Positions 3,533 through 29,639 of a stretch of DNA of 29,639 nt are shown here, piece after piece. A program made the position numbers and the translations under genes. The notes beneath the pieces were generated by a model. It had not been told where the DNA came from. It was given only the letters and a program-made list of their open reading frames with translations, and searched no databases. This stretch comes from a virus. Position 1 is the stretch's first letter, and every line of letters begins with the position of its first letter. The DNA lies in IMG/VR virus record IMGVR_UViG_3300025721_000041, positions 1 through 29,639 of that record; one strand, 5' to 3'.

Positions 3533-6130
3533 TTAGCCACTCACCCCCAAGCTGTGCATCCTACCCTGTTGGAGACGAAACAGTTGTCTAGATATGACTG
3601 CTCCGTCCATGTGGAGATTAACCTGAATGGGTTGCGAAGATTCGCTTGGCTGGTTTTGCGTCTGCATGCTGGCCATAACGCCCCTCGTGACTTCCTGTGC
3701 GGTTTTCATCGCCATGTCTTGGCTAGTACTCGGCAGAGCCTTGTATTTTACGCCCATTGTCATATCTGTGGAAAGCCCCTGAATGGCTTGAGCCACTTTA
3801 AACTTGTTCTTTTCAATACCAGTAGCAAGCCCACCCATGAAATCAGGCATCCAACTTTCGTAGTCCGTTAAGGGGCCTTCGTCTGGCACACTGAAATGTA
3901 AATAACTCCTGATTTTATTAGCTACTCCAGATACTGCAGAACCAATCCTTCCAACCATCGCCTTGATACCGTTGATCATCCCCTGAATCATGTCAACGCC
4001 ATATGAGTACATCTTAGACGGCATACTTGTTATCCAACTCATGGCGCTCATAATTCCGTTTACGATTGTATTTTTAACTCCCGAAATAGTACCGCTAATA
4101 CCGTTTCTCATCGAGGTAAACATATTCGACCCTATATTAGATAGTTGACCAGGTAAACCCCTGAACCACGCCAGGAGCCCATTCCATATGTTTATAACTC
4201 CGTTGACTATACTTGAACCTATAGTCGTCGCCGTAGACTTCAGTGCGTTCCATGCTGTGGTAGCTGTTGATCTTAATTCGTTCCATACACCAACAAGCGC
4301 CGTTTTAATGCCTGTCCATGTTGCACTAAAAATAGTAGATACATCTGTCCATAATTTCATAAAAAACGCGCTGATAGGCTCCCAGTTTTTATAGACCACA
4401 AAGGCCAACGCGGCTAATCCGGCAATTACCGCGATCGCTATCCCAATTGGACTAATTAAAAATGTAAACACCGCCGCTAGGCCAGCTATAGCCGGAGTCG
4501 CCGCTGTTGCACCCACTGTTATCACTGCCATGGCTCCTGATACTGTGGCAATAGCCCCTGTAATAAAAGAAGCGGCTAAAATTAGCTTACCTACTATAAA
4601 TAACAGAGGCCCTATTGCACCCGCAATCAGCGCGAACTTAATTATCATTTCTTGCTGTGCCGGTGACATGGCAGCAAATCTACTCGTCAACTCTTGTAGT
4701 TTCTCAGCAAATGCTCTTATCTTCGGCAATAGGATATCACTTAGAGTTATTCCTATCCCCTCTAGGGCGCTTTTGAGCTTAGTTATGTCTCCCTTTGTGT
4801 TGTCTTGCATTGTTTCAGCCATCTTAGCTAAAGACCCTGTGCTTGCGTCTATGTTTCCCTGTAGGCTGTCGAACTCTTTACCCACTCCATCAACTAACGC
4901 TTGTAAGGTGGTTAGCTGAGTCTTGCCACCAATCATGGCGAGATACATATTCTTTTGTTCTTCCGTCATGTCTTTGGTTTTGTTTCCGACTTCTTTCAGG
5001 ACATTGCCCATTCCCTTAAATTTACCCGAGCTGTCGAACGCCTCGATATTTAGATCTGCCATTGCCTTACCAGCTTGCCCTGCTCCTGTGGTGAGGTTTA
5101 TCATTATGCTATTTAGGCTATTTCCGGCTTCGCTACCCTTCATGCCTCTGTTCGCCAATATACCTAATATGGCGTTAGACTCTCCGAGTGACACGTTAAG
5201 ATTTTTAAAAGTACCACCCGCGATAACAAACGCCTCGCCTAATTGGTCAACGCTTGTGTTACTCTTGGTACTCGCCATTGCCATCTTGTCTAAATACTCA
5301 GGCAAATCTTTAACCTCTAACCCTAACGATGACATACTATCTGTAACAATGTCGGACGCCCTCGCGAGATCCATGTTTCCAGCCTCGGATAATCGCAAAA
5401 TAGGCTCTAGACCGTCGATCATTTGTGTTGTATCCCAACCAGCTAGTGCCATAAAGGATAATGCGTTCGCCGATTCTGTCGCGCTTTTAGAGGTCTTAGC
5501 TCCCATTTCCTTGGCCTTGTCGGACAGTTTATTGAAATCTTCACCGGTAGCCCCTGATATGGCACTCACATTGCTCATTGCCGATTCAAAGTCCATACCA
5601 ACCTTAGCAGCCGCTGTCGCCACTCCCAACAAGGGCATAGTTATTCCAATCGCCAACGACTTCCCAATGCTTGTAAATTTCTTTCCTACCGCCTGTAGGT
5701 TCGCGGTTGTCCCTGCCATTCTTTCACTTAAATTGTTCCACGCAGATCCTTGTATTGCTAACTCTCTAGTAGTTTCAGCAATGGCAGTCTGTGTCCTCGA
5801 TAGAGCAGCATTGGCGTGGTTCAACCTTATCTCTAAATCTTGTGTCGCTCTTGCGTCCCTGCCCTTAGTTTCAACGCTTTTGTTATACGCTTCTTGGAGT
5901 GCATCAACTTTTTCCCTTTGTAGTTCTTCCTGCTTTGAGAGGTTTTCGGCTTTTAAGCGTAACCCGTCAATGCCTTTTGCATTCTCCCCAAGGGCTGCTG
6001 TGTTGGCTTTAAAGCTACTATCTAATAGTTTCAGCTGCTTGTTAATGCCAGTAATGCCTGTCGCAAACCCTGTTGAGTCTAAGCCTATAGAAACTGCAAG
6101 TGAACCGAGTTCATCTGCCATATCGTTCAC
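3533..6130 (-). CDS. Tape measure protein
   Basis: This 865-residue protein sets tail length. The N-terminal 130 residues are coiled-coil, beginning MADELGSLAVSIGLDSTGFA with EEQKLNL-like helices. A TP901-type core lies at about 170-420, including AKVGMDFESAMSNVSAISGA and SKSATESANALSFMALAGWD. Hydrophobic membrane segments occupy about 493-575 (KFALIAGAIGPLLFIVGKLI and following). The end has repeats of WNALKST and a SYLHFSVPDEGPL motif common to the family. GGAGGTGA precedes the ATG. It follows the chaperones as usual. An antisense frame of 404 codons over its 5' half is a shadow. Confidence 0.96.
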   Translation of the reverse strand: MNDMADELGSLAVSIGLDSTGFATGITGINKQLKLLDSSFKANTAALGENAKGIDGLRLKAENLSKQEELQREKVDALQEAYNKSVETKGRDARATQDLEIRLNHANAALSRTQTAIAETTRELAIQGSAWNNLSERMAGTTANLQAVGKKFTSIGKSLAIGITMPLLGVATAAAKVGMDFESAMSNVSAISGATGEDFNKLSDKAKEMGAKTSKSATESANALSFMALAGWDTTQMIDGLEPILRLSEAGNMDLARASDIVTDSMSSLGLEVKDLPEYLDKMAMASTKSNTSVDQLGEAFVIAGGTFKNLNVSLGESNAILGILANRGMKGSEAGNSLNSIMINLTTGAGQAGKAMADLNIEAFDSSGKFKGMGNVLKEVGNKTKDMTEEQKNMYLAMIGGKTQLTTLQALVDGVGKEFDSLQGNIDASTGSLAKMAETMQDNTKGDITKLKSALEGIGITLSDILLPKIRAFAEKLQELTSRFAAMSPAQQEMIIKFALIAGAIGPLLFIVGKLILAASFITGAIATVSGAMAVITVGATAATPAIAGLAAVFTFLISPIGIAIAVIAGLAALAFVVYKNWEPISAFFMKLWTDVSTIFSATWTGIKTALVGVWNELRSTATTAWNALKSTATTIGSSIVNGVINIWNGLLAWFRGLPGQLSNIGSNMFTSMRNGISGTISGVKNTIVNGIMSAMSWITSMPSKMYSYGVDMIQGMINGIKAMVGRIGSAVSGVANKIRSYLHFSVPDEGPLTDYESWMPDFMGGLATGIEKNKFKVAQAIQGLSTDMTMGVKYKALPSTSQDMAMKTAQEVTRGVMASMQTQNQPSESSQPIQVNLHMDGAVISRQLFRLQQGRMHSLGVSG

Positions 6131-6133
6131 CTC

Positions 6134-6600
6134 CTAGAAAACCTGATCTATGTACGCTCTTTTTTGCAAAGGATTTTGATCTCCGTTTTTGAAGGAAACA
6201 AGGTCCATGTACCAAGCTAGATCCATATCCTCAATGGCCGCTAAGGACCATCCTTGCTCAAGCAAATTGTTGTATAAGGTCTTTATCCAATCGAGTGGGG
6301 ATAATAAATCACCGCAGTCATTGCTATCCCCACTTACTTGTTTTTTCCCAAAGTACCGACGACTGCACCCATTATTTCGTTGATCTTTTCGACCATTTCA
6401 TCCGCATAGACTTCTTCGTAAAATTCATCGACGGTTATTTTATGGTCGAGTGCTTCACAGCAAAACTCGACCATTCCATCTAAGTCGCTTGAATTCATTT
6501 TAGTTAAATCTTTGTCCTGAGTAATTTGCAGGGCTTTCCTGAACGCACCGGCCTTTGCCCTTGGGAGCATTAACTTCTTTTCTCCAATTTCAATAATCAT
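6134..6600 (-). CDS. gpGT-like fusion by -1 frameshift
   Basis: After the slippery run at 6349-6340, the -1 frame is open for 68 sense codons and stops at TAG (6136-6134), giving a 155-residue fusion: 87 residues of gpG plus 68. The added part begins QVSGDSNDCGDLLSPLDW and contains WIKTLYNNLLEQGWSLAAIE, DMDLAWYMDLVSFKNG and RAYIDQVF. The pattern of a helix with L-x-x-x-G-W, then D-x-x-x-x-Y/W, is typical of gpT-like parts. The stop is 4 bases before the tape measure start. This is the normal gpG/gpGT arrangement between the tube and the tape measure gene. The fused part has no convincing start of its own. Confidence 0.85.
6334..6600 (-). CDS. Tail assembly chaperone (gpG-like)
   Basis: This 88-residue protein is a tail assembly chaperone of the gpG/gp13 type. 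It is mostly alpha-helical and acidic, beginning MIIEIGEKKLMLPRAKAGAF, with EFCCEALDHKITVDEFYEEV in the middle and ending TLGKNK. GGAGGG precedes its start. It is made in excess and coats the tape measure protein. The last codons contain the slippery run GGGAAAAAAC just before the TAA stop at 6334-6336, where a share of ribosomes should shift -1 to make the longer fusion. Confidence 0.88.
   Translation of the reverse strand: MIIEIGEKKLMLPRAKAGAFRKALQITQDKDLTKMNSSDLDGMVEFCCEALDHKITVDEFYEEVYADEMVEKINEIMGAVVGTLGKNK
6340..6349 (-). promoter_or_regulatory. -1 ribosomal frameshift site
   Basis: GGGAAAAAAC contains two overlapping canonical X-XXY-YYZ heptamers in the zero frame, GGGAAAA and AAAAAAC, right before the gpG stop codon four to six bases downstream. 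A stop close downstream favours slipping. A possible downstream stem is CTATCCCC and its reverse complement-like GTGGGGATAG region near 6290-6333. Confidence 0.85.
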
Positions 6601-6621
6601 TTAAATCCCTCCGTCCTAAAC

Positions 6622-6644
6622 TAAAAGAGGCCCGAAGGCCCCTT
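6622..6644 (-). terminator. Terminator after major tail protein
   Basis: AAGGGGCC (6644-6637) pairs with GGCCTCTT (6632-6625) with a TTCG tetraloop and one G-U pair, then TTTAG. The stable UUCG hairpin follows the abundant tail tube gene and precedes the chaperone genes, so it may reduce downstream expression. Confidence 0.7.
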
Positions 6645-6647
6645 CTG

Positions 6648-7532
6648 CTACGCTGTCGTGAAGTTTGTAATGTTTATTGTCGCTAAACGATTTCCGGCAA
6701 CATCAGTGACATTGGTTGTGCAAATTGCAATATACGGAGTTGCGGCAGTTAAGCTGGTCGTCGGATCAAGGGTTACGATCTTGTTCGCACCCGTTATGGC
6801 CAATGCACCTGAGACAATTGTTCCGTCTGTGCTCTTCATAAGGAAGAAGTTAGCCGCAGTAACCTTCAAACCATCAATGGCCTCGTTGAATGTCCATACC
6901 ATATTGGCGGTTACCGCTACAGCTGTTGCAGCGTCAGCTGGCGTGGTGATAACGGTCGGGGGAATTGTATCGGCATCTGGAATCGCGACCGCCGTGAACC
7001 AAGTTGAATCAATCGTGGCAGGACAGTTAGCGTCCGTAGTATCCACATGATATTCCCACATGCCGTTAAATTTCGTGGGCTGGAATATGGCAGATAGTTT
7101 AGGAACTTGGAAATCTTTCTTCCCTTCTTGCCCCTTCATTGAGTCGTCTGGCAAGTTAAAAATGCCCTTGTAGAGTACACCGTAGCGGAAACCTCCTCCG
7201 CTGAGGTTAGCCTTATACAAAACGGCTACATAAGGAGCAACGTCTGTGCTTTTGGCGTAGACTCCGCCAAGCGTGGCAATAGTTTGTCCTAAAAGAGTTG
7301 CCCTTTGTGCGCTCGTAAGATCAGCTTGGGTAACATCAACATCTGCGCTATCAAAGGAGGTTGCTTGGTCCCACAGGATATTCTCCGCATAGAGCCTTTC
7401 TGTGTTCTGTTTTGGTTTGACTCCAATTTCCTTGATGCCTGGATAATAGACAGGTATTTCAAAGGTCAGCTCTGTGGCATTGTCCAAGGTTAATGGGGCA
7501 ATGTATAATTTTTCTACACCAACGATTGGCAT
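6648..7532 (-). CDS. Major tail protein with C-terminal Ig-like domain
   Basis: This 294-residue protein forms the tail tube. Residues 1-175 match phi13-type major tail proteins, starting MPIVGVEKLYIAPLT, with PGIKEIGVKPKQNTERLY and GGFRYGVLYKGIFNLPDD. From about residue 190 (PPTVITTPADAATAVAVTAN) to the end is a bacterial Ig-like domain of the Big_5/SbsA type, ending DVAGNRLA and a last strand. Such domains decorate the outside of the tail and often bind weakly to sugars on the host. It is longer than simple tube proteins by about 100 residues for this reason. AGAGGAGAT supports the start. Confidence 0.93.
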   Translation of the reverse strand: MPIVGVEKLYIAPLTLDNATELTFEIPVYYPGIKEIGVKPKQNTERLYAENILWDQATSFDSADVDVTQADLTSAQRATLLGQTIATLGGVYAKSTDVAPYVAVLYKANLSGGGFRYGVLYKGIFNLPDDSMKGQEGKKDFQVPKLSAIFQPTKFNGMWEYHVDTTDANCPATIDSTWFTAVAIPDADTIPPTVITTPADAATAVAVTANMVWTFNEAIDGLKVTAANFFLMKSTDGTIVSGALAITGANKIVTLDPTTSLTAATPYIAICTTNVTDVAGNRLATINITNFTTA

Positions 7533-7546
7533 GAAATCATCTCCTC

Positions 7547-7867
7547 TTAATTCACGTAAACAAATCTCAGGACCTTATGGTAGATTTTTGTATCAACCTC
7601 AAACATTTCTGTGGCGTAGGTTCTACTGAGTCCTGCTCCTTCAAGTAAGGTTTTGGCCTGCTCCACAAGGGCCGTAAAATCACCGTTTGACCAAACATCA
7701 ACTTGCATATAAAAGCCTGTGGCAATCTCTTTGTTTTCTGCCCAGGCTTCTCCTTGCTCGTTGTACGTAAAAAAGGTTATATAAGTAGAAGCGGTACCCG
7801 CATACCTGAGGTTTGCTACAGGAAGGTTGAGAGGTTTGAGGGTATCCATTATCAATTTGTTAATCAC
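7547..7867 (-). CDS. Tail terminator/completion-like protein
   Basis: This 106-residue protein lies between gp10 and the major tail protein, where the tail terminator is encoded in siphoviruses. It starts with a GTG that overlaps the gp10 stop (GTGA). Segments include YAGTASTYITFFTYNEQGEA, FYMQVDVWSNGDFTALVEQ (an alpha-beta pattern common to such proteins) and KVLRFVYVN at the end. It probably forms a hexamer that caps the tail tube. The assignment is from position, size and secondary-structure pattern more than from a strict motif. Confidence 0.8.
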   Translation of the reverse strand: MINKLIMDTLKPLNLPVANLRYAGTASTYITFFTYNEQGEAWAENKEIATGFYMQVDVWSNGDFTALVEQAKTLLEGAGLSRTYATEMFEVDTKIYHKVLRFVYVN

Positions 7868-8250
7868 GACCCTAGCCCTTTCTTCAGTACCTTTCGTATA
7901 TTTTCAAGAGCTTGTGTTTTCTTTTGTTCATAGGCTGGCCCCATAAACGGTTTAGCGTGCATTTTGGACGTTCCGAATTCAGAAAACTTGAGATAAAATG
8001 CCTTGCTAACATCGCCTTTATCCAGGCCAATTAAAAGATACTTGATGCCGTTTTTTGTTTTTACCTTTCCTATCTTTAATTCAGCCTTTGCTTTGCCTGT
8101 TCTCACGGGTGCGTTCGCAACCATCTCGGAAAAGATTGGTTCTGCCCCAGCTCTTAAGGCTTTATTGGATAGTGTACTAACATTCGCACCTATGGCATTA
8201 AGCTTTGCTATGAGTTCGTCAACGCCAACGAGAGCTATCTCAGCCGCCAT
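7864..8250 (-). CDS. HK97 gp10-like head-tail protein
   Basis: This 128-residue protein is of the HK97-gp10/tail-component family. The motifs are LNAIGANVSTLSNKALRAGA, then VANAPVRTGKAKAELKIG, where APVRTG is the family hallmark, and KFSEFGTSKMHAKPFMGPAY near the end (F-x-E-x-G-T-x-x-x-x-A-x-P-F). It probably has a role in joining or completing the tail. The start at 8250 overlaps the end of the head-closure gene; longer frames do not have better sites. Its TGA overlaps the GTG of the next gene. Confidence 0.93.
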   Translation of the reverse strand: MAAEIALVGVDELIAKLNAIGANVSTLSNKALRAGAEPIFSEMVANAPVRTGKAKAELKIGKVKTKNGIKYLLIGLDKGDVSKAFYLKFSEFGTSKMHAKPFMGPAYEQKKTQALENIRKVLKKGLGS

Positions 8251-8578
8251 TTTGTAACACCTGCCTTGTGTGTAGTTCAAGATACTTTCGACGGCCATCA
8301 ACATCGACTGGTGGGATTTTTAGTTCGAAGTTTTCCGCCCCATGGATTAGTTTCATACCTGCCTTGACGTCTGATCGGTACCGAATTATAAACATGACGT
8401 CACTTTCAGCTTGTGCAGCTGCAGCCTGATAAAACAATTTCCCTTTAAGCCCGGTTCTTTTTGCATGGGTGGTAATGAGCGTTTGCCAATCTTCAAGTGG
8501 ACTGCCATTATCATTCGTCTGACCTATGGACGCATTGTATTGAAGGGTGATTCTATGCCTTAAAACTCCAGGATTCAT
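8240..8578 (-). CDS. Head-closure protein (SPP1 gp16-like)
   Basis: This 112-residue protein is of the phage head-tail joining/head-closure family. It begins MNPGVLRHRITLQ, the typical start of this family, followed by a small beta-barrel with SDVMFIIRYRSDVKAGMKLI and DGRRKYLELHTRQV. It closes the connector after DNA packaging. AGGGAGGT lies six bases before the ATG at 8578, so I reject the longer frame that begins at 8617. It ends inside the start region of the gp10-like gene (8250), showing translational coupling. Confidence 0.92.
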   Translation of the reverse strand: MNPGVLRHRITLQYNASIGQTNDNGSPLEDWQTLITTHAKRTGLKGKLFYQAAAAQAESDVMFIIRYRSDVKAGMKLIHGAENFELKIPPVDVDGRRKYLELHTRQVLQNGG

Positions 8579-8589
8579 AATGACCTCCC

Positions 8590-9183
8590 TTATACAGGCA
8601 CTATTCTGTCCTGCCATAACAAAGCCGACACAGCAAACGCTAGCTCCCCAGGTGCTTGGCCTGTCTCGCTTAAGGGAGTCCGATTCTCAAACCAATGACT
8701 GATGAGTAATTTCATGGCTTGCTTTACCTTTTGCGGCACAGTATCTGCGGTATCACCATAACCACACGTAAACTCAATGACGACCGCATCGAGTGGGAAA
8801 GGTACGAACGAAGGCCAGGGCTGTGCATAAGTAGGAGTTAGCCTACCCAAAACGCCGCGCGTACTGACAACATATTGTTGGGTTTCAGTAAGTGTTGTCT
8901 CTATCCCGGCGGAGTTCCTATAAGTGATTAGGTCGACGGATTGTAGGTTCCCTCTCGGTAGTTCAATCACTCGACTTGGCCAGTAGTCAAAACTCATTTG
9001 CCAAGTTTGAGTGATGTAGACGCGGTTTTGAAACGCTTCACAATACTCACGAGCTGCTGTAATGATGGCACTCAGGTAGTCGTCTTCTACGGTATCGGTA
9101 ACATCGTCGATTCTAAGATAGGTCTTTACATCAGCCAACTTCAAGGGCTCATTGGCGGGCGGTTTGGTTAAGACTAAGTTCAT
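8590..9183 (-). CDS. Head-tail connector (gp6-like)
   Basis: This 197-residue protein is a head-tail connector of the gp6/SPP1 gp15-like type. It begins MNLVLTKPPANEPLKLADVK with TYLRIDDVTDTVEDDYLSAI, the usual N-terminal helix pattern, and continues ITAAREYCEAFQNRV. It joins the portal ring to the head-closure protein. The frame is open to 9243, but AAGGAGGG directly before the ATG at 9183 supports the shorter start. It is followed by head-closure, gp10 and tail-terminator genes in the normal siphovirus order. Confidence 0.9.
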   Translation of the reverse strand: MNLVLTKPPANEPLKLADVKTYLRIDDVTDTVEDDYLSAIITAAREYCEAFQNRVYITQTWQMSFDYWPSRVIELPRGNLQSVDLITYRNSAGIETTLTETQQYVVSTRGVLGRLTPTYAQPWPSFVPFPLDAVVIEFTCGYGDTADTVPQKVKQAMKLLISHWFENRTPLSETGQAPGELAFAVSALLWQDRIVPV

Positions 9184-9274
9184 GACACCCTCCTTGTTAG
9201 TCAATAACGGCACTAGGTGGAGTCGATCCACCACTAAGCTCACTGGCTCTGTTAATAGGGGGTGCAGTTAATAA

Positions 9275-9296
9275 GGAGCAGGTGTTACCCTGCCCC
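9275..9296 (-). terminator. Terminator-like hairpin after capsid accessory gene
   Basis: GGGGCAGG (9296-9289) pairs with CCTGCTCC (9282-9275) around GTAACA, an 8-bp stem with one G-U pair. TTATTAA follows, so the U-run is weak. It may cause partial termination after the abundant capsid genes. Confidence 0.5.
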
Positions 9297-9307
9297 TGTA
9301 AATGAGA

Positions 9308-9772
9308 TTAAACTAAGACTGTATCTGGCACTTCGTTTTCAAACCGACCTTTGCTCAAGACTGCAACAACCCCGCCAACAATAGCTCCGACGACTACCTC
9401 CGTCGATTTTAGTCGCACGAAGCTATATCCAGTGGTCGCGAGAGATTGGTTTAGGACAAAAATTTTATAGACCTTATTACTCGCAGCTGCGGTCGTGAAT
9501 CCCGTCGCGGGAGCTTGGGTAATCGGGCCATAGGTATCACCTGTAACGCACTCTTGGTATAGGAAAGGAATCACTGTAGTGAGTGTCGGTGTAGCATCGC
9601 TGCAAGCCTCAATGATTATCGTCGCTGTACCTGCCAAGCCAACACCGCATTGAACGACAAAACAAGCGCTGCCCCAGTTTTTCATATTGATCACTTTCGT
9701 TGGAACCGCCCCTGCAAAAACATTGGCTGCAGGGGACAATACATTAACCACATGGTTTAATGAATCTCTCAT
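9308..9772 (-). CDS. Possible capsid accessory protein
   Basis: I do not recognise the family of this 154-residue protein. It follows the major capsid gene and has a beta-rich composition with many Ala, Thr, Val and Gly, and few charges, without a signal peptide. Features are NMKNWGSACFVVQCG (about 28-43), TATIIIEACSD, and VYKIFVLNQSLATTGYSFVRL, similar to a jelly-roll or beta-sandwich decoration or head fibre protein. GGAGGAAA lies about 11 bases before the ATG. The frame continues 36 sense codons past its TAA stop, as noted in the findings. A decoration role is inferred from position. Confidence 0.65.
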   Translation of the reverse strand: MRDSLNHVVNVLSPAANVFAGAVPTKVINMKNWGSACFVVQCGVGLAGTATIIIEACSDATPTLTTVIPFLYQECVTGDTYGPITQAPATGFTTAAASNKVYKIFVLNQSLATTGYSFVRLKSTEVVVGAIVGGVVAVLSKGRFENEVPDTVLV

Positions 9773-9800
9773 AGTATCTGTTTCCTCCTCATGTTTTCAA

Positions 9801-11093
9801 TTATGGACGTGGCGCTAAGGTTACAAATGGGCTGAGTGTGTTGCTTCCTTTAAATGGGGTGAGAGCTGACTTCCAGATCGGCTGCCCATCGACGCGGTAG
9901 ATGAAACGGAAAACACTCTCGTCATAAAGGAACCTCACATGGATGGACGATGCAGCATTAATACCACCTTTGTCGATTAGGAGGTATTGCGAAAGGTCAA
10001 CTAAGGAAATATCTCCGAGGGACCCTATGGTGTTAGCTTGTTCGACTGGAATCACAGGACGACCGAATAGTGTACTATACTGTGCCCCGGACACTCCGCC
10101 CGCTGGCATATAAACTGGCACACCTCCAGTGCCTACTGTGATCGTCATTTGGCTGAGTTGTGGTTCGACGTCTTGGTTGATTAACCACACAGCGTTTTGG
10201 CGAGATCTCCCCCAGCAGCGTGCCCACATATTCAGAGCGTTTTGTGTAACGATAGAACCGTTTACTTGTCCAGCTTCTTTTGCTACTGTGACAAGAGCGC
10301 CACTTTTCATGAATCCAAGGGGCTGACCAGCACCTAATCCGTTCATAATGGCATCATCCATTTTGAAACCGAACTCTTCCGCGAACGCTTGACCAATGAT
10401 GGATTCAAGTGCGGTACTATCTTGGAGAAGCTCATCGGTAGCGTAGCAAAGCCCGGTTAGTTTCTTGAGTTTTAACCCTACTTTATTAAACTTCGGCTTT
10501 GTGCCGACCAATCCATCGGCTTCGTTTTCCCAGTAAGATTGAATTCCGCCCCAGCGCGATCCGTTTGCTCGGCTTGTTTCGTCGATTCCGTTGGCTTCGA
10601 GTGAGTTCGACGTCGGACTGATCGGAATTTTACGACACTTCGAGGCTAAGATACCCGTTTCGTAGGTTCTCTGGAGTAACTCTTTGGCAAAATCCTCGCC
10701 TACAAGAAACCCTCCGTCGGATGGGACTGATTCACCCATTCCGGAAGCTGCATTTTGCATAAGCAACCGAGGGTCTGGGGCGACGCCTTGTTTGGAAGCA
10801 TTAAAGACAGCTGTCAGGAATTCACTGTTGTTCTTCCATAACACTTTTGTGTGGTCCTTAGGCTGTGCCCAAAGGGGCTCGTTGACGGCAATCTTTGCTT
10901 CCGCTGCAGCCTTTAGTTCCTCGGCTTCCATCGCATCAACCTGTTTTTGGACTTCAATCTTGGCATTGACAGCTTGAATTTCCGCAAGTACGGCGTTAAT
11001 TTCATCGGTGGTAGACGATTCCTTTGCCGTAATGCCTTGCGCTTTCGTCTTTAAACTTGCTTTGAGAGCCAGCAATCGTTCCATTTCATTCAT
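9801..11093 (-). CDS. HK97-family major capsid protein
   Basis: This 430-residue protein is an HK97-fold major capsid protein. The N-terminal 100 residues are a coiled-coil, charged delta/scaffold domain (LLALKASLKTKAQGI through QKQVDAMEAEELK) that the protease is expected to remove. The mature part begins near SGMGESVPSDGGFLVGEDFA and includes the E-loop region and ANTIGSLGDISLVDLSQYLL. The frame continues upstream to a GTG at 11147, but that extension overlaps the protease gene. GAGG nine bases before the ATG at 11093 supports the shorter form; an ATG three codons further is also possible. Confidence 0.94.
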   Translation of the reverse strand: MNEMERLLALKASLKTKAQGITAKESSTTDEINAVLAEIQAVNAKIEVQKQVDAMEAEELKAAAEAKIAVNEPLWAQPKDHTKVLWKNNSEFLTAVFNASKQGVAPDPRLLMQNAASGMGESVPSDGGFLVGEDFAKELLQRTYETGILASKCRKIPISPTSNSLEANGIDETSRANGSRWGGIQSYWENEADGLVGTKPKFNKVGLKLKKLTGLCYATDELLQDSTALESIIGQAFAEEFGFKMDDAIMNGLGAGQPLGFMKSGALVTVAKEAGQVNGSIVTQNALNMWARCWGRSRQNAVWLINQDVEPQLSQMTITVGTGGVPVYMPAGGVSGAQYSTLFGRPVIPVEQANTIGSLGDISLVDLSQYLLIDKGGINAASSIHVRFLYDESVFRFIYRVDGQPIWKSALTPFKGSNTLSPFVTLAPRP

Positions 11094-11136
11094 TCCTGTG
11101 AGCCTCGCTTTCTTTTTTGGGGCATAAAAATAACCT

Positions 11137-11907
11137 TTAGAGTTCACACTCCAAGGCTAAAATTGCTTTTGCTTTTGCAACGTCTTCTGTTGTGTCTGGT
11201 TCGACCGGGTCGATTGGCGCGGTGGGTCCAGGTGGATCTTCCTTTTCGCCCCTTACAGTAATAAACCTCGGAGTATTTCTATACTTGGCAAGGATTTCAA
11301 AGTCCCGAATGCTTGCAGCAATCGCTTTTTCCTCGTCGACAAAATCACAGAGGCCAAGATCGAAACATTCTTGGGCAGTTAACCAAGTTTCTGCGTCAAG
11401 TAAAGCAACAAGGTCCTCTCGGCTCATGTCCGAGGCTTTAGCCAAGTAAGTTTCTTGAATGCTCTCGCATACCTTGTCCAAAGTGTCGGCCATGGTCCGC
11501 ATCTCATGGGCATTTCCCCAAACTCCACTCATGGGATGATGAATCATCATCATGGCGTTTGCTGGCATATCAATTGTGTCGCCCGCCATGGCGATGACTG
11601 AGGCAATGCTGGCTGCTAGGCCATCGATGTGCATATTTACCGTCGCCTTATGCCTTTTTAACTGCGAATAGATCGTTTGACCTGCAAAGACATCCCCACC
11701 AGGGGAATTCATGTACACGTTTAGGGTTGTTATATCGCCAAGGGCATCTAGCTCTGCCTTGAATGACGTAGGGGTTACTTCGTTCCCATCGCTAAACCAA
11801 CCACCTTGTGAATCCGCAATCTCCCCGTAAACGGTCAACTCGCCTTTATTGTCAGCCAGTGCTTTGAATGCCCAAAATTTCTTCTTCGCTGTTACTTTTT
11901 TTGCCAC
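11137..11907 (-). CDS. ClpP-like prohead protease
   Basis: This 256-residue protein is a Clp-protease-related head maturation protease (S14/ClpP type). The catalytic serine is S100 in HIDGLAASIASV and the histidine is H123 in MMIHHPMSG; MNSPGGDVFAG (67-76) is the oxyanion-loop region. DAETWLTAQECFDLGLCD is the family block before the end of the fold. It trims scaffold and capsid proteins during head assembly. The frame is open to a TTG at 11931, but GGGAGGTGAG sits six bases before the GTG at 11907, so I use that start. Its last bases overlap the frame of the capsid gene. Confidence 0.92.
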   Translation of the reverse strand: MAKKVTAKKKFWAFKALADNKGELTVYGEIADSQGGWFSDGNEVTPTSFKAELDALGDITTLNVYMNSPGGDVFAGQTIYSQLKRHKATVNMHIDGLAASIASVIAMAGDTIDMPANAMMMIHHPMSGVWGNAHEMRTMADTLDKVCESIQETYLAKASDMSREDLVALLDAETWLTAQECFDLGLCDFVDEEKAIAASIRDFEILAKYRNTPRFITVRGEKEDPPGPTAPIDPVEPDTTEDVAKAKAILALECEL

Positions 11908-11929
11908 TTTCTCACCTCCCTTCAAAGGC

Positions 11930-11960
11930 AAAATAAAAAAGCATCGATTAAAATGCTTTA
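11930..11960 (-). terminator. Intrinsic terminator between portal and protease
   Basis: AAAGCAT (11959-11953) pairs with ATGCTTT (11944-11938), with a TTTAATCG loop, followed by a T-run with TTTATTTT on the minus strand. A 7-bp AT-rich stem makes partial termination likely, which could lower expression of genes beyond it or protect a processed mRNA end. Confidence 0.6.
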
Positions 11961-11964
11961 AGCC

Positions 11965-13224
11965 TTACTTCTCTGTAATTATTTTATTGATCGTATCCGC
12001 GAGGGCCTTGGTCCGGTCGGCCTCTTGGATTTTACCGGCCTCCCCCATATTTAGTGGTTGGGTGTAGATGTCTCCATTTGGTATAGCCGACATATTTTCT
12101 AGTTTACGGATGTCGTTAACACTGAGCCAGCCCCACTGCCTACCTTGCGCATAAGCAGTTGACCTGCTCACCGCATCGCCTCGGAGTAAGGAGTCAATTT
12201 TAAACTCAACATAATACCCTGCGGTTCTTTGCTTATCTGTGAGCAATTGCATGTTGATGTTCTCTTCCCAACGTTTGAAAATAGGGAGCATGGTGTACAT
12301 AACGAATTCGAGACTTTGATGCTCGATGTTGTTATTGGTTGAGTGACCGAGGAGTTGGATTAAGTGTTGCGGGACCCGGTAAATTCGGCAGATGTCCTCG
12401 GCTTGAAACGATTTACTCTCTAGCAATTGGGCATCGACCGGGTTAATCGTGTGGGGGGTGAATTTCATCCCGCCCTCAAGTAGCATCGGTGTACCCGTTC
12501 GTTTAAGTCCTGAATAATTATGCTTGAGTTCTTTCTTTAGTCGATTGAACGCTTCCTCTCCGAGTTCGCCTGGGACATCAAAGGAACCGGATGGGTTCGC
12601 ACCATTTTTATAAAAGTTAACTCCAAATTGTTCGTATGACATACCAAGCCGGATGGCTGAGGCAGCATAAGCGATCGGTGAAAGGCCGACTATTCCATCA
12701 AGGCTCAGGTTTGGAACGTGGAACACTTGATCCCTTGTCAGCTCTTTTTTGGAAATCCCATCCCGGATTGTGTAAACGAGTTTTTTGGTACTGGGGTTCC
12801 TCGAAATATTCACACTCGTATGCTGGTAGGGATATAGCCCGACGAGCTGACCTTTTCCGTTGACAAGCCTCTCGCAGACCGTGTTACCTCCTAGGTTCTG
12901 CGAAGTCATACACGCCTCTTTGAAATTAAAAGGTGACATCTCTTCGTTCGGTTTATAGTGGAGGATGTCATAAATGGCGAGGTCGTTAACAGCTTCGCGC
13001 TCACCGTTTTGGTCCTTCCTGTAAAGCATGGCGGGCATACAGGCGAATGTTTCTGCGAGTACCTTGTTGCAAGCAAAAACCGCCGTGTATTTCAGGGCGG
13101 TGGCGGGGTCCATCGAAGCATCTCCATAGGATGAGTTGTCTAGGTCATCTCCGGTGATAAATGCTCTTATATAATCGTCCATGTTGTTTTTGAATAATAA
13201 CTTAACCCTTTCAGTGAACTTCAC
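11965..13224 (-). CDS. HK97-family portal protein
   Basis: This 419-residue protein is a portal of the HK97 family, which forms the ring through which DNA enters the capsid. Recognisable parts are AVFACNKVLAETFACMPAMLY (41-70 region), AIYDILHYKPNEEMSPFNF, the crown/stem region with FKNGANPSG, and LLESKSFQAEDICRIYRVP with HLIQLLG. It lies directly after the large terminase, its usual place. The start is a GTG preceded by GGGAGGGG. A terminator-like hairpin follows its stop. Confidence 0.95.
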   Translation of the reverse strand: MKFTERVKLLFKNNMDDYIRAFITGDDLDNSSYGDASMDPATALKYTAVFACNKVLAETFACMPAMLYRKDQNGEREAVNDLAIYDILHYKPNEEMSPFNFKEACMTSQNLGGNTVCERLVNGKGQLVGLYPYQHTSVNISRNPSTKKLVYTIRDGISKKELTRDQVFHVPNLSLDGIVGLSPIAYAASAIRLGMSYEQFGVNFYKNGANPSGSFDVPGELGEEAFNRLKKELKHNYSGLKRTGTPMLLEGGMKFTPHTINPVDAQLLESKSFQAEDICRIYRVPQHLIQLLGHSTNNNIEHQSLEFVMYTMLPIFKRWEENINMQLLTDKQRTAGYYVEFKIDSLLRGDAVSRSTAYAQGRQWGWLSVNDIRKLENMSAIPNGDIYTQPLNMGEAGKIQEADRTKALADTINKIITEK

Positions 13225-13239
13225 CTATACCACCCCTCC

Positions 13240-14931
13240 CTAGATAAAACTTCTCATCCCGCGTTTTTCGTAGATGGATTTTTCTTCGATGACCGCCGCC
13301 CGACAGTGTGCGTTAATTAAGGCGGCTATGGGGTCAATTCTGTGTGTGGATTTTGACTTGTCCAGCATAAACGTTTCATTAGGGGCCATCTTGGTGATTG
13401 CATTCCCCACCGCCCAAGCTAGCACTGGATTGTTATTGTGTACTAGATTTCCCTTGTACACTTCTTCTCTGAAATTCTTAGTTGGCTCTCCTAGTGATGG
13501 CATCCCTTGTCGGATATCAACACACGTGTAGCCAAGGTTTGTCATTTCCGTTCCGAACATATTAGCGTTCCATTTGTCATAACAAAGCTCTTTGGGTATA
13601 AAGCCATGCTCTTTGGCAGTGGAGTTGATGTACTCGATAACAAAAGCATAGTCCACAACTTCACCCGGCGTTAGGGTGATCCATCCTTGGTCCACCCACA
13701 AATCGTAGGGGACTTTATCCGTCAAGATCTTTTCTCTTAGTTTTTCTTCCGGCATGAACGAATGGCACAGCACGTAATATTTACCCTCGATTTTAAACTC
13801 ATGCGCTACGCTTGTTAGGTCTAATGTTGCCGATAAGTCAACGCCAATAATGCAATTTTTATCCCGCAGAATCTCCAAATCGAAGTCTTCCCCACACCTG
13901 CTCCACTTGCTTAGGTCCATGTAACCGAACTCTCTCATTTGTACCCATTTGTTAACGGTCTTTGTTAGAAAGTCTCGCATCTTTTCAGGAGCCTCTAACG
14001 CTAGATCAAGCCTTCGCCTAATGGATTCAACGCCCTCGGGGTAGCTGCAAACAATCGGGTTTGCTTTAGCCCATACAGCCTCGTCCTTTATATTGTCGTC
14101 TACATCAATCTCGTTAACCATGACGAAATAATTGTCGTTCACATAAGGGTTGTCGGGGTCGAGGATATGCGACACGAGCTTATATTCGACCGAGTAGCAA
14201 GGATTCGCGAGATTAAATCCGGCGGTGGTTATGATCATTAATAGGGGTTGGGGTCTTGCGACCATACCACTGTCGATGATGTCATACATCTCACTGGTTT
14301 TATGTGCGTGATATTCGTCGATAACTCCGCATTGGGGGTTCAGACCGTCTCCGGTTTTCTCATCTTCTTTGCTGAGTGCGTCCATGATGGACCCCGTCTT
14401 TAGGTGTTTGATCTGACCGTAGGCAATTTTGAACTTCCCTTTTAATTCCGGGCATCCCAGGAGCATTGCTTCTGTCTCTTCCCAGACAATCCGTGCTTGT
14501 TTCCTTTTGGTCGCGGTGCAGTAAACCTCAGACGTTCCTTCCCCAAGAGCCATAAGCTCGTAGCTTCCCACACACGCGAGCGATTGAGATTTTGCATTTT
14601 TACGTCCAACTTGCCAGTAAGCTTTGCTGAATCTTCGGTAGCGAGTGCCTTTATGAATCCACCCGTAGATGTTTCCAAACACAAACTTTTGAATGACGTG
14701 CGGCTCGATGTGTTGTCCTTTAAGGACCCCTTTACGGTGCTTGAATAACCTCATCCAATCAAGGAACCGTTCAGCTCTTCCCTCGATAAAAACAAAAGGG
14801 AACCCTTCGGTCCCTTGGTTCGCTAGATCATTGAGAAATCTTTGACAGGCCCATTTATGCTTTTGGCAAGAGATTATTTCGCCGGATAGAACGGCCTCTG
14901 AATACTCGATTAGTTCTTCCGTTAGTGACAT
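13240..14931 (-). CDS. terL: Large terminase subunit
   Basis: This 563-residue protein is the packaging motor and nuclease. The ATPase shows a Walker A of the variant type VGRKNAKSQS (residues 108-117) and Walker B VIDEYH (203-208, with D205 and E206). ITTAGFN is the coupling motif. The nuclease part has IIGVDLSATLDLTSVAH with the first metal-binding Asp. Size and motifs fit HK97-type terminases that make cohesive ends. It is translated with the small subunit through an overlapping stop and start. A GGGACC-type inverted repeat inside it (14789-14812) is coding sequence. Confidence 0.96.
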   Translation of the reverse strand: MSLTEELIEYSEAVLSGEIISCQKHKWACQRFLNDLANQGTEGFPFVFIEGRAERFLDWMRLFKHRKGVLKGQHIEPHVIQKFVFGNIYGWIHKGTRYRRFSKAYWQVGRKNAKSQSLACVGSYELMALGEGTSEVYCTATKRKQARIVWEETEAMLLGCPELKGKFKIAYGQIKHLKTGSIMDALSKEDEKTGDGLNPQCGVIDEYHAHKTSEMYDIIDSGMVARPQPLLMIITTAGFNLANPCYSVEYKLVSHILDPDNPYVNDNYFVMVNEIDVDDNIKDEAVWAKANPIVCSYPEGVESIRRRLDLALEAPEKMRDFLTKTVNKWVQMREFGYMDLSKWSRCGEDFDLEILRDKNCIIGVDLSATLDLTSVAHEFKIEGKYYVLCHSFMPEEKLREKILTDKVPYDLWVDQGWITLTPGEVVDYAFVIEYINSTAKEHGFIPKELCYDKWNANMFGTEMTNLGYTCVDIRQGMPSLGEPTKNFREEVYKGNLVHNNNPVLAWAVGNAITKMAPNETFMLDKSKSTHRIDPIAALINAHCRAAVIEEKSIYEKRGMRSFI

Positions 14932-15428
14932 CAGACTTCACCGAATTTCCTCTCGAACTCCGTGGGTGGCTTAATCGTTTCTTTAGGCGTTGCCAGTCGT
15001 AACCTTGCCGCAGGAGTCAGCCCGAATTCTGCGCAGTATCGTTTATATATCTCACCATATTTATTGGATAAGGCCACGTAGGGGTTGGGTACTATGTTTT
15101 TATTCCCGCCCTTGTTTGTGTAAGTTACCAACATCCCATGTTTCTCGATCTCTATATTTGATTTAATGAACTTAGAAAAAGCATCGCAGCAAATCGCAAG
15201 AGCTCCTACGTCTACGTTTGTTAATAAATCAAGTTCTTGTAGTTCCCGGCTTAATATCTTCCAGTGTTTTTTTGATTCCGGATCGAGCCAGGTTGGACAT
15301 CGTACTTTGTCCATGTTAGGTCTGTATTTTTTTTCGAGTAGTCTGCGTGCCTCGATCTCGGCTTTGGTTAGGTGTTTCTTTCCTTCCAAAACAACCACAT
15401 CTATTGGCTTTGGTGGTCTACCTGCCAT
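14931..15428 (-). CDS. terS: P27-family small terminase subunit
   Basis: This 165-residue protein is a P27-family small terminase subunit, which recognises the packaging site and loads DNA on the large subunit. It begins MAGRPPKPIDVVVLEGKKHL, typical of the family. A helical middle has WLDPESKKHWKILSRELQEL and the end has FGLTPAARLRLATPK, another family hallmark. The start is supported by AAAGGAGAG. It follows the candidate cos region, and its TGA shares one base with the ATG of the large subunit (ATGA-like TGATG junction). Confidence 0.95.
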   Translation of the reverse strand: MAGRPPKPIDVVVLEGKKHLTKAEIEARRLLEKKYRPNMDKVRCPTWLDPESKKHWKILSRELQELDLLTNVDVGALAICCDAFSKFIKSNIEIEKHGMLVTYTNKGGNKNIVPNPYVALSNKYGEIYKRYCAEFGLTPAARLRLATPKETIKPPTEFERKFGEV

Positions 15429-15896: not shown

Positions 15897-17150
15897 CTAC
15901 TTAGCCACAGCTTGGTAGGATACCGTCTCCCCACCACGCAATAAAAAAACACCAGCATCGCTGGCAGCGCTTTCGACGAACCTTTTCACAATAACATCAG
16001 CATACTTTTCGTCGAGTTCCATTGAGTGGCACACTCTTTCTGTCTGCTCCGCCGCGAGGATCGTCGTTCCAGAACCGCCAAACAGGTCGAGAACCAAATC
16101 ACCTTTATGACTTGAGTTGAGGATGGCCTTTGCCACCAATACAATCGGCTTCATCGTCGGATGCAGTTCGGATCGCTTCGGTCTTGGTATATCCCAAACG
16201 TCGGTCTGCTTTCTATCTTCAAGAGGCGCAAGCCTAGCGCTGCCCTCCAACCATCCATACCATATCGGTTCGTATTGAGTGTGGTAATCCTTTCGGGATA
16301 ATACCAGCGAGTCCTTTCTCCAAATGACTGTACTCGACCAGTGATAACCTGCGTCGGTCAAAACATTCATAAGACTGCCCCACTCCTGTGCACTCATTAC
16401 CACATAGGTCATGCAGCCCGGCTCGCACACAGCTTTCATAGCACTGAAGGTTTTCTCCATGAATTCCTTGAATTGATCGGTCGGCATACTGTCGTTAAGA
16501 ATTGAACGCGACTTCCAGCTTGGGTGATTGGTACTCGAACCATAGTCAACATTCCAAGGCGGGTCTGTGAAAACGTGCCGGGCCTTTTTACCATTCATAA
16601 GAACTCCGACATCTTCAGGAGAAGTGCTATCCCCACACATCAATCGGTGCTTCCCGAGGAGCCAAACGTCGCCGCGCTGACTTATTGGAATTTCAATATC
16701 CGCCAGTGCCTTATCCGCATCGAAGTCGTCCTCTTCTACGTCTTCACTTGTGGGGTCACTATCAACAATCAATTCATCTAGATCAAAACCCGTTAGCGAA
16801 ACATCAAAGCCGCTGTCGCTGAGGTCTTTTAGTAGGTCCTCTAAACGTGGAGCATCCCACTCGCCGGATACCTTGTTGAGCGCGATATTTAGAGCCTTTT
16901 CTTTTTGCATATCCATATCCACCACGACACAGTCAACTTCCGTCGCTCCCTGCTCAGTTAATATTTTAAATCGTTGATGGCCGCCTACGATGTTACCGGT
17001 CCGCTTGTTCCAAATAACCGGTTCGACGTACCCAAATTCCTCGATGCTCCTTCGGAGTTTCTCATACTCTACGTCGCCGGGCTTCAGGTCTTTGCGGGGA
17101 TTGTATTTTGCCGCTTTCAACTGTTCAGCGGGTATTTTCTGTACGTCCAT
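15897..17150 (-). CDS. ParB-like/N6-adenine-type DNA methyltransferase fusion
   Basis: This 417-residue protein joins a ParB/sulfiredoxin-like N-terminal domain (residues 1-100, with KYNPR and GGHQRFKIL at 56-64) to a beta-class DNA methyltransferase. The catalytic motif TDPPWNVDYG has D196-P-P-W199, and the SAM-binding motif DLFGGSGTT is at about 355-363, so the order is the beta class (catalytic before SAM). D-P-P-W suggests adenine-N6 methylation, though N4-cytosine cannot be ruled out. No matching restriction enzyme is nearby, so it is an orphan enzyme. Likely roles are protection against host restriction or marking DNA for packaging or replication. GGAGG precedes the ATG. Confidence 0.93.
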   Translation of the reverse strand: MDVQKIPAEQLKAAKYNPRKDLKPGDVEYEKLRRSIEEFGYVEPVIWNKRTGNIVGGHQRFKILTEQGATEVDCVVVDMDMQKEKALNIALNKVSGEWDAPRLEDLLKDLSDSGFDVSLTGFDLDELIVDSDPTSEDVEEDDFDADKALADIEIPISQRGDVWLLGKHRLMCGDSTSPEDVGVLMNGKKARHVFTDPPWNVDYGSSTNHPSWKSRSILNDSMPTDQFKEFMEKTFSAMKAVCEPGCMTYVVMSAQEWGSLMNVLTDAGYHWSSTVIWRKDSLVLSRKDYHTQYEPIWYGWLEGSARLAPLEDRKQTDVWDIPRPKRSELHPTMKPIVLVAKAILNSSHKGDLVLDLFGGSGTTILAAEQTERVCHSMELDEKYADVIVKRFVESAASDAGVFLLRGGETVSYQAVAK

Positions 17151-17456: not shown

Positions 17457-18275
17457 CTAAGCCTCTGAACTGGGCCCTTTGCGTTTCGCTTCGGCGGCAT
17501 GTTTGGCTTCAATCGTTCGGTAGCTCGCATTTCCGTCCAGCCTGCTCAGGAGAATACTTCGTTCGGTTTTATAGTCTGCGCCGATAAATCCTAGTTTTAA
17601 AAGGAAGCAGCGAAAGGCGTATTTATCGTTAACACCATCCTTTTGTATGGTTGAACATGATTTTTGTTTCTTCGCCTGCTCGTTGAGTTGCCAACAAAGT
17701 ACACCGAAAGTGTGGACCTCTTGGGCATCCAGTGTGGCGTTGAAAAAACTAAAGGAGATAGTCTTGTTTATCAAGTCAATATCAAGATCGCTACGCCCAG
17801 TGATCTCCCCGGCTTCGTTAGCGTTGTTTACGACGCTTACAAAATCGTCCAAGGTTTCTATAGGAACCGCGTTGATCGCCTTGACAAAGCTCGCTGGGAG
17901 TATGGCCTCATAACGGGCAAGTGCTTTTTGTATGAGCGTCTGCTTGCACCAAATAAGGTTAACAAGATTTCGAAGGGTATTCCCATTATGGCCGTCCATT
18001 GGAAGGGTTATAGTCAAATTCCCTTCTGGCTTTGCGCCCGCAATGTTTAGTGCATCGAACACCATCCTTAGTGTTACATGCTCCTCTTTGATTCCCATTT
18101 CAGGCGTTGTAACGATACCTTGTTTATCGATGGCCCACCCACCAGCATTGTATTTAAAACTTGGCACTCCAGCATAAATAACTTGTTCTCCGATTGTATC
18201 CGCGATCACCAATGCCACTTGTTTACGTTCTAAGCCTGTTACTTTGGTGGAAAATCTTAAGCTATCGTTCGTCAT
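17457..18275 (-). CDS. Prophage 'virulence-related' family protein
   Basis: This 272-residue protein resembles a family in Firmicutes prophages usually labelled 'virulence-related protein', though no virulence function is shown. The family features are VIYAGVPSFKYNAGGWAIDK at the N-terminus, a middle NLTITLPMDG, and ISFSFFNATLDAQEVHTFGV. The C-terminal block is KYAFRCFLLKLGFIGADYK followed by LLSRLDGN. There is no signal peptide, membrane segment or obvious catalytic motif, so I expect a cytoplasmic protein. AGGTAGGGAT gives a good ribosome binding site. A dyad lies just upstream, so it may have its own control. A terminator-like hairpin overlaps just after its stop. Confidence 0.75.
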   Translation of the reverse strand: MTNDSLRFSTKVTGLERKQVALVIADTIGEQVIYAGVPSFKYNAGGWAIDKQGIVTTPEMGIKEEHVTLRMVFDALNIAGAKPEGNLTITLPMDGHNGNTLRNLVNLIWCKQTLIQKALARYEAILPASFVKAINAVPIETLDDFVSVVNNANEAGEITGRSDLDIDLINKTISFSFFNATLDAQEVHTFGVLCWQLNEQAKKQKSCSTIQKDGVNDKYAFRCFLLKLGFIGADYKTERSILLSRLDGNASYRTIEAKHAAEAKRKGPSSEA

Positions 18276-18355: not shown

Positions 18356-18541
18356 TCATCTGTTGCATATCCCTTTGTTGCCTCTCATCATCTGGTCATA
18401 GGCTTTAAATTCCTCTGAGTCCTCGTACATTTCCTGTAACCGTTGTGCGTCAATGCATCGCTTTCCATCCCAACGCTTACAGTTAGTGCACGCCTTTGTA
18501 CATCCTGATTCAATAGGTGTAAATAAAACGCACCGTACCAT
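18356..18541 (-). CDS. Cys-rich mini-protein, unknown function
   Basis: This 61-residue protein has cysteines at 4, 14, 18, 21, 29 and 59. The C-x3-C-x2-C-x7-C cluster (SGCTKACTNCKRWDGKRC) suggests a zinc-binding or similar small metal site. The rest is a charged helix (DAQRLQEMYEDSEEFKAYDQ). I do not recognise the family. AGGGATGAATT before the ATG is a good ribosome binding site. It is the first gene after the late promoter, terminator and hairpins. A regulatory or anti-host role is possible but not shown by the sequence. Confidence 0.65.
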   Translation of the reverse strand: MVRCVLFTPIESGCTKACTNCKRWDGKRCIDAQRLQEMYEDSEEFKAYDQMMRGNKGICNR

Positions 18542-18569: not shown

Positions 18570-18620
18570 GGCCGCCATAAAGGCAGCCGTGATTTAAAAA
18601 GAATACGACCATAAGGCCGT
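18570..18620 (-). promoter_or_regulatory. Two related tandem hairpins in late leader
   Basis: Minus-strand RNA can form ACGGCC-UUAU-GGUCGU (18620-18605) and, 16 nt later, GGCUGCC-UUUAU-GGCGGCC (18588-18570). Both have a short UU(U)AU loop closed by CC/GG. Each contains one G-U pair that would be an A-C mismatch on the plus strand, so structure is favoured only in the minus-strand transcript. They follow the leader terminator and precede the first late gene. Confidence 0.5.
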
Positions 18621-18649
18621 TATATAAAAAGAGAGAGGAGCACGAAAAT

Positions 18650-18686
18650 ACAAAAGGCCCCTGGACAGATTGTTGTCCAAGAGCCT
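18650..18686 (-). terminator. Intrinsic terminator in late leader
   Basis: On the minus strand AGGC (18686-18683) and TTGGACA (18680-18674) pair with TGTCCAG (18667-18661) and GCCT (18658-18655), with a 2-nt internal mismatch and an ACAATC loop. TTTT G TATTTT follows. It begins about 15 nt after the expected start of the late promoter, so it may end most transcripts unless antitermination occurs, or may simply stop early-operon transcription. Confidence 0.75.
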
Positions 18687-18705
18687 CAATACTTTTCGCA
18701 TCTTT

Positions 18706-18734
18706 ACTATATCATTTTGAGAAAAGGGTGTCAC
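18706..18734 (-). promoter_or_regulatory. Candidate late promoter
   Basis: The -35 box is GTGACA (18734-18729) and the -10 box TATAGT (18711-18706), with a 17-bp spacer. TGA before the -10 makes it an extended -10 element. Transcription would start near 18699. The match to a sigma-A promoter is good, with a non-consensus first -35 base that fits activator dependence. It points toward the packaging and structural genes. Confidence 0.65.
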
Positions 18735-18764
18735 TCAACCTCTACTCAACCATTACTAAACCAT
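18732..18764 (-). promoter_or_regulatory. Three tandem 11-bp repeats, candidate activator site
   Basis: Read on the minus strand, ATGGTTTAGTA (18764-18754), ATGGTTGAGTA (18753-18743) and GAGGTTGAGTG (18742-18732) are contiguous 11-bp repeats with consensus ATGGTTGAGTA. An 11-bp period is about one helical turn, so bound protein units would line up on one face of the DNA. The last repeat overlaps the -35 box of the promoter, as for an activator touching RNA polymerase. The first overlaps the stop codon of the ArpU-like gene. Confidence 0.65.
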
Positions 18765-29231: not shown

Positions 29232-29639
29232 CTAAAGCAAATTATTTTTTATTATTTTTCTGAGCCTTGCCTTAATCTTGTTAACACGATCCTGGATTGC
29301 CTTTGAAGACACTCCTTCTTCACGTGCAATGTCAGCCATTGTGCGTTCTTCATAGAACACCTTATGTACCAGCAGCTCCTGCTGCGGCTGGAGCATTGCG
29401 ATTGCACTATATAAAACCTCATTTTCAAGACTGCTAAAAACCTCGGCTTCAACGTTGACTGATAAATCCTCAAATTTTTCTTGCTTGTCATTACCATTGC
29501 TATATGACTTATGCCTGCGGGTTTCACTTTGGTCACTGTTGTAAATCTCCCTGTCAAGTTCAATAGATACCTCGCCGATATCGTTCGGAACTTCAACCTC
29601 TACAATCTCACCTGTTAAAAATTCGTACTTAATCTTCAT
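29232..29639 (-). CDS. Sigma-70 region-4-like phage protein
   Basis: This 135-residue protein has a C-terminal helix-turn-helix of the sigma-70 region 4 type (about residues 80-132, around ERTMADIAREEGVSSKAIQD) followed by a basic helix. The N-terminal half begins MKIKYEFLTGEIVEVEVP, a beginning I associate with small sigma-like proteins of Firmicutes prophages and conjugative elements. There is no region 2, so it cannot act as a normal complete sigma factor by itself; a DNA-binding regulator of phage transcription is the likely role. The ATG is the last codon in the window, so its ribosome binding site and promoter lie outside and an upstream extension cannot be excluded. It would be the most upstream gene of the early operon seen here. 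Confidence 0.75.
   Translation of the reverse strand: MKIKYEFLTGEIVEVEVPNDIGEVSIELDREIYNSDQSETRRHKSYSNGNDKQEKFEDLSVNVEAEVFSSLENEVLYSAIAMLQPQQELLVHKVFYEERTMADIAREEGVSSKAIQDRVNKIKARLRKIIKNNLL

Follow-up and report, generated by a model that had tools for sequence, protein, structure and literature searches.

The locus analysed here raises the question of how a temperate phage starts transcription of its late genes, and of what becomes of RNA polymerase at the terminator-like hairpins that stand between the late promoter and the first gene behind it. The window, that is, the whole stretch of DNA analysed, comprises 29,639 nucleotides (positions 1 to 29,639 of IMG/VR virus record IMGVR_UViG_3300025721_000041). 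The phage is of the temperate type and its hosts are Desulfosporosinus-type bacteria. Its terminase, portal, protease, head and tail genes lie downstream of the promoter on the same strand, so that this promoter heads the late operon (Table 1). We consider it probable that the locus is a late switch of the Ltr/RinA type: the regulator would read a repeat array and activate the promoter, and the transcript would then enter a leader of terminator-like hairpins.

Relatives were collected from viral contigs, from one contig of Desulfosporosinus and from 74 genomes belonging to that order. The comparison sets the window against 19 related loci (L001–L004, L011–L014, L022–L026 and L029–L034), which together make 20 leader loci. 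In all 20 the elements come in the same order, namely regulator, array, extended −10, near-constant initial sequence and T1 hairpin. Another locus, L027, is a remnant without the leader module. In the gut Heliusvirales phages L015, L016, L018 and L019 a MazF-like gene lies directly behind the regulator, and neither array nor leader is found there, so the wider family does not have the module throughout; these four phages count against the switch reading.

Table 1. Coordinates of the regulator, the proposed operator, the promoter, the leader and the late genes in the window
Feature	Position	Strand	Basis or remark
Late regulator, 158 aa	18756..19232	−	PHROG_36 (RinA family), E=1.8e-11
Three contiguous 11-bp direct repeats, proposed operator	18732..18764	−	Sequence; lag-11 p=0.005; recognition-helix co-variation
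Repeat 1, ATGGTTTAGTA	18764-18754	−	Covers regulator TAG stop (18758-18756)
Repeat 2, ATGGTTGAGTA	18753-18743	−	
Repeat 3, GAGGTTGAGTG	18742-18732	−	Overlaps −35 hexamer
Late promoter	18706..18734	−	Promoter scan; −35 GTGACA 18734-18729, 17-bp spacer, TG 18714-18713, −10 TATAGT 18711-18706
Expected start (~18699) and near-invariant initial transcribed sequence, ATGCGAAAAGTATT	18688..18701	−	Alignment; start predicted from −10
Outer stem, 5′ arm GCGAAAA	18693..18699	−	Pairs with 18648-18642
T1 hairpin, terminator-like, GAGGCTCTTGGACA..TGTCCAGGGGCCTT, U-rich tail	18654..18687	−	Terminator scan; near-invariant in 20 loci
Outer stem, 3′ arm TTTTCGT	18642..18648	−	Beyond T1 U-tract; inner pairs with compensatory changes
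Pyrimidine tract, CTCCTCTCTCTTTTT, between T1 and T2	18626..18640	−	Kept in most relatives
T2 hairpin, terminator-like, ACGGCCTTATGGTCGT ATTCTTTTTA	18605..18620	−	Terminator scan
T3 hairpin, GGCTGCC-TTTAT-GGCGGCC	18570..18588	−	U-run weak in window, better in several relatives
First ORF after leader, 61 aa, cysteine-rich, CTKACTNCKRWDGKRC	18356..18541	−	CTxxCxNCKRWDGKxC
Late genes	3533..15428	−	PHROGs matches
Small terminase	14931-15428	−	PHROGs
Large terminase	13240-14931	−	PHROGs
Portal	11965-13224	−	PHROGs
Protease	11137-11931	−	PHROGs
Major head protein	9801-11147	−	PHROGs
Tape measure	3533-6130	−	PHROGs

A regulator of probable RinA family with a sigma-region-4-like fold

The initial annotation called the regulator ArpU-like. 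Profile comparison placed it with RinA instead, as phi11 RinA is assigned to PHROG_36 too (profile match, E=1.9e-38). At E<=1 the NCBIfam models gave neither an ArpU nor a RinA match to the regulator, and 'RinA-family' is the better label. PHROG_79, described as 'Q-like', also matched weakly (E=4e-4), the match to PHROG_36 being far stronger.

The protein consists of an N-terminal helical part and a C-terminal sigma-region-4-like domain (about residues 90–157); its AlphaFold2 model has a mean pLDDT of 81.7. In Foldseek searches the best local matches of the C-terminal domain were to sigma region 4 (3hug_K, TMt 0.82, rmsd 2.1; also 2h27_D, sigma-E region 4 on its −35 DNA, TMt 0.75), and, since the E-values of these matches were not significant, the likeness is to be taken as a fold resemblance. 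Weak sigma-factor sequence matches of the regulator agree with it. The model thus suggests that the DNA-binding domain resembles sigma region 4 in fold. A second, small sigma-region-4-like protein (PHROG_11138) is encoded at the edge of the window (29232-29639, minus strand).

An 11-bp repeat array reaches into the promoter

Behind the coding sequence we found the three contiguous 11-bp repeats that had been described as overlapping the regulator stop codon and the −35 box, and the promoter scan likewise returned the proposed promoter with its 17-bp spacer and TG-extended −10, scoring GTGACA-17-TATAGT with TG at 10/12. The repeat units have identities of 10/11, 8/11 and 7/11. Over the 66 bases upstream of the −10, self-match at a lag of 11 was 0.45 (z 3.0, p=0.005; null, dinucleotide shuffles), so that the array has moderate significance when judged by the window by itself; a general repeat search of the window did not list the three-unit array.

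The period is clearer among the relatives as a group. Across 18 loci, two Streptococcus phages included, mean self-match was highest at lag 11 (0.458); the neighbouring lags 10 and 12 gave 0.311 and 0.293, and most others about 0.24. Tandem 10–11-bp repeats of a motif of their own occur in nearly all relatives that keep the module, and are thus present beside close homologues of the regulator, as the initial annotation required. The motif varies from phage to phage and the period of about 11 bp stays, being clearly 10 bp in two loci (L026 and L030). The arrays of L022 (two clear units; p=0.18), L025 (p=0.07) and L029 (p=0.08) are statistically the weakest and individually non-significant. Further Streptococcus phages with distant regulators carry 11-bp arrays, each with its own motif. 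A period of 10–11 bp would fit binding of the regulator on one helical face, as had been suggested.

Most relatives keep the extended −10, and the −35 matches at 5/6 positions in the window and close relatives and is poor in distant relatives. Counts of promoters (5 vs 5.6) and terminators (3 vs 3.3) in the window are no higher than in shuffles; it is because they are conserved across relatives that the promoter and T1 rise above chance.

The DNA-binding half and the repeats are exchanged together

Similarity between recognition helices correlated with similarity between repeat motifs over 19 loci (Mantel, r=0.35, p=0.0002), also after N-terminal similarity had been removed (partial Mantel, r=0.31, p=0.0002), and N-terminal similarity, given the helix, added nothing to prediction of the motif (partial Mantel, r=−0.001, p=0.50); because the 19 loci are related, these p-values are approximate and serve as guides. 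The array windows were the promoter-proximal 66 bases and were set after the result of a first run, in which poorly placed four-unit windows gave a partial p of 0.012. L011 and L022 have recognition helix and motif in common and dissimilar N-termini (0.37).

Pairs of closely related phages point the same way. L025 and L026 come from two genomes. Their DNA is identical from at least 300 nt before the regulator to about nucleotide 275 within it; beyond this point the DNA-binding half and the repeats differ, and the sequence from the promoter core through T1 is 93–97% identical. L004 and L013 share 89% identity over 2.2 kb, ending at nucleotide 207 of the regulator, and 87% identity over a further 3.8 kb, of which the TG of the extended −10 is the very start. 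Similarity resumes exactly at the TG in L003/L013 and L003/L014 as well, one base before it in L004/L012 and L024/L026, and seven bases before it in L012/L013. In these mosaics the DNA-binding half and the repeats are swapped as one cassette, with similarity usually resuming at the TG. For the C-terminal domain as reader of the repeats, such exchange is the strongest evidence; with the co-variation, it gives strong indirect support to the binding of the regulator to the array that was proposed initially.

Long homologous flanks are common to mosaic phages, and a recently spread module could therefore owe its conserved block to shared descent, its repeats having arisen by chance. We hold this to be highly improbable, as the repeats, though variable in sequence, retain their period, and as their motif still follows the recognition helix once the N-terminus is corrected for. 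A chance or unrelated repeat array was rejected on the same grounds, the kept 10–11-bp period and the tracking of helix by motif.

Otherwise near-identical phages exchange the DNA-reading half with its repeats, and the extended −10 sets the boundary. This amounts to a natural domain swap, through which the recognition code of the regulator family becomes open to direct test. Possibly the exchange keeps other phages from cross-activating the switch, or satellites from exploiting it.

The late transcript would open with a conserved hairpin leader

T1, of 14 pairs, begins at about +13 from the expected start (terminator scan), close to the 15 nt estimated before. Both T1 and T2 have in the window the GC-rich stem and following U-run of intrinsic terminators; the U-run of T1 is short, and most loci have U-tracts of just 4–5 U. 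Together with the initial transcribed sequence, T1 is near-invariant in the 20 loci, window included. The T1 pattern was seen beside this regulator only (8/8 matches in the 74 genomes, 10/10 in viral contigs); all eight genome matches coincide with independently found regulators, and the reversed-pattern control gave 0. As the search patterns were derived from these same sequences, the informative point is that there were no occurrences elsewhere. In Streptococcus phages L017, L020 and L055–L060 a different near-invariant initial sequence, AAGATGTCAAAAAAGATAAAAAT, lies just after the regulator, and these phages mostly have a CCCAGTAATGACTGG hairpin without a U-run, behind 11-bp arrays of varied motif.

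The default product had been put at a 45–50-nt leader RNA. This picture is incomplete because pairing passes the T1 U-tract and reaches about +58, and T2 follows. This additional pairing forms an outer stem beginning at about +1. Its own arms pair better than swapped ones (−6.6 vs −5.1 kcal/mol, permutation p=0.0007, 19 loci) and at three inner pairs both partners have changed, support that is moderate because two sequence subgroups contribute; in L023 and L032 the stem is hardly formed. Most loci have a second terminator-like hairpin and several have a third, altered in sequence and kept in form; the transcribed strand carries 1.85 such hairpins per leader, against 0.195 for shuffles and 0.05 for the opposite strand. 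The pairing beyond the U-tract and the second hairpin suggest that T1 belongs to a larger leader. Rfam gave no match to the leader at gathering thresholds, and chance-level matches only at E up to 10.

The leader hairpin might instead be mainly a stabiliser or processing element at the 5′ end of the mRNA, its terminator look being incidental and T1 stopping little transcription. An outer stem of this extent, unneeded by a plain terminator, would agree with this, as would the 4–5 U tracts and the Streptococcus phages that keep a conserved leader and hairpin without the U-run. Additional hairpins that keep their form, in numbers well beyond those of shuffles and of the opposite strand, speak against it, and we regard it as unlikely.

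The switch reading would then run as follows. The regulator would be produced at the end of the early operon, and its sigma-region-4-like domain would bind the repeats behind its own gene, as co-variation and cassette exchange indicate, presumably with one protomer on each repeat and all protomers on the same face of the helix. By analogy with characterised relatives, the bound regulator would aid RNA polymerase at the extended −10, and the late operon would start at about 18699. The late transcript would open with the conserved terminator-like hairpins, which may also end the early operon and hold the late genes quiet. For full late expression polymerase would pass them either through strong activated initiation or because the regulator or the leader lowers termination. 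The DNA-binding half and the repeats would form an exchangeable specificity cassette bounded at the extended −10.

Comparison with characterised late switches

RinA, Alt and Ltr are activators of late promoters; the late promoter of phi13 loses its activity when the repeats are deleted, and for TP901-1 Alt four imperfect repeats lie at −76 to −32 (PMC13123087). With Ltr-type late promoters the window shares imperfect tandem repeats upstream of the promoter, near the end of the regulator. In the phi13 Ltr system (P23 promoter) the regulator gene ends with direct repeats that late promoter activity requires (PMC13123087), and a terminator-like hairpin stands behind that promoter; unlike our regulator, Ltr belongs to PHROG_1058, its repeats are of 18 bp and no sequence relation was detected. 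TP901-1 Alt, also a late activator, has tandem imperfect repeats with strong 11-bp periodicity (0.64), but falls into PHROG_2198, only weakly into PHROG_36, and its leader differs. In phi11 the gene for RinA, a PHROG_36 member, closes the early operon, repeats (TTGGCAGTAAA/GTGGCAGTTTT) and promoter lie right behind it, and a terminator-like hairpin precedes terS. The repeat motif is however another one, terS follows directly, such a conserved leader is lacking and sequence identity is low.

A terminator-like hairpin between the promoter and the first late gene is found in phi11, SAP8, phi13, TP901-1 and PLE2, at the equivalent place and with unrelated sequences. This is what one would expect of a simple early-operon terminator placed behind the late promoter, leaky enough for the late genes, with a leader of no special function. 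We find this explanation doubtful, as it leaves unexplained the near-invariance of the initial sequence and of T1, and the co-variation in the outer stem. A terminator behind every late promoter of the regulator family was considered and rejected, Streptococcus relatives and D6E having none. For phi11, phi13 and TP901-1 the hairpin raises the question of how polymerase passes from the late promoter to the first late gene.

In lambda, the gene for the late regulator Q is followed by a promoter and then a terminator (pR'/tR') before the late genes. The window has the same order, with a terminator-like hairpin in place of tR'; beyond the weak PHROG_79 match no homology to Q was seen. As a good −35 is combined with an extended −10 in the window and close relatives, an activator is not obviously needed, which counts against a pure activator model; and a promoter followed by conserved terminator-like hairpins requires read-through. 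In a Q-like antitermination, the promoter would be constitutive, a short RNA would extend to T1, and the repeat-bound regulator would load onto the early-paused polymerase and carry it past T1 and T2. Besides these two features, of which the hairpins precede the first gene in almost every locus of the group, the near-invariant initial transcribed sequence, the weak 'Q-like' match and the extension of the repeats to the −35 region are in its favour. On the other hand, the relatives that have been characterised act as activators, those from Streptococcus lack a terminator at this place and the −35 is poor in distant relatives, and we consider the Q-like scheme rather doubtful.

Antitermination by the regulator may nevertheless be part of an Ltr/RinA-type switch. 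It is conceivable, if unlikely in our judgement, that the regulator is both activator and antiterminator, starting the late transcript and, with the 5′ hairpin leader, modifying polymerase to run through T1 and T2. In that case, RinA/Ltr systems in which a terminator precedes the first late gene would be a Gram-positive equivalent of lambda Q whose operator specificity can be exchanged. Terminators within the late operon, sought as a sign of processive antitermination, numbered 24 vs 18.6±4.5 expected.

The operator part of the Ltr/RinA-type switch is of a known kind; late regulators of Gram-positive phages are already known to use repeats near promoters. The exchangeable cassette with its boundary at the extended −10 and the hairpin leader are apparently new, and may be partly described already.

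Genes behind the leader

A cysteine-rich ORF comparable to the 61-aa one is the first after the leader in most relatives; the latter had no family match in Pfam or PHROGs. In many relatives the pyrimidine tract is complementary to the ribosome binding site of this ORF, and the predicted pairing might mask its translation.

Between the leader and the terminase genes the late region encodes an amidoligase-like protein (PHROG_2443; 17457-18275, minus strand). A ParB-N domain fused to a DNA N6/N4 methyltransferase is encoded at 15897-17150 (minus strand), and the 3′ end of this methyltransferase gene, in the late operon, contains a terminator-like hairpin with seven T (15966-15950, minus strand).
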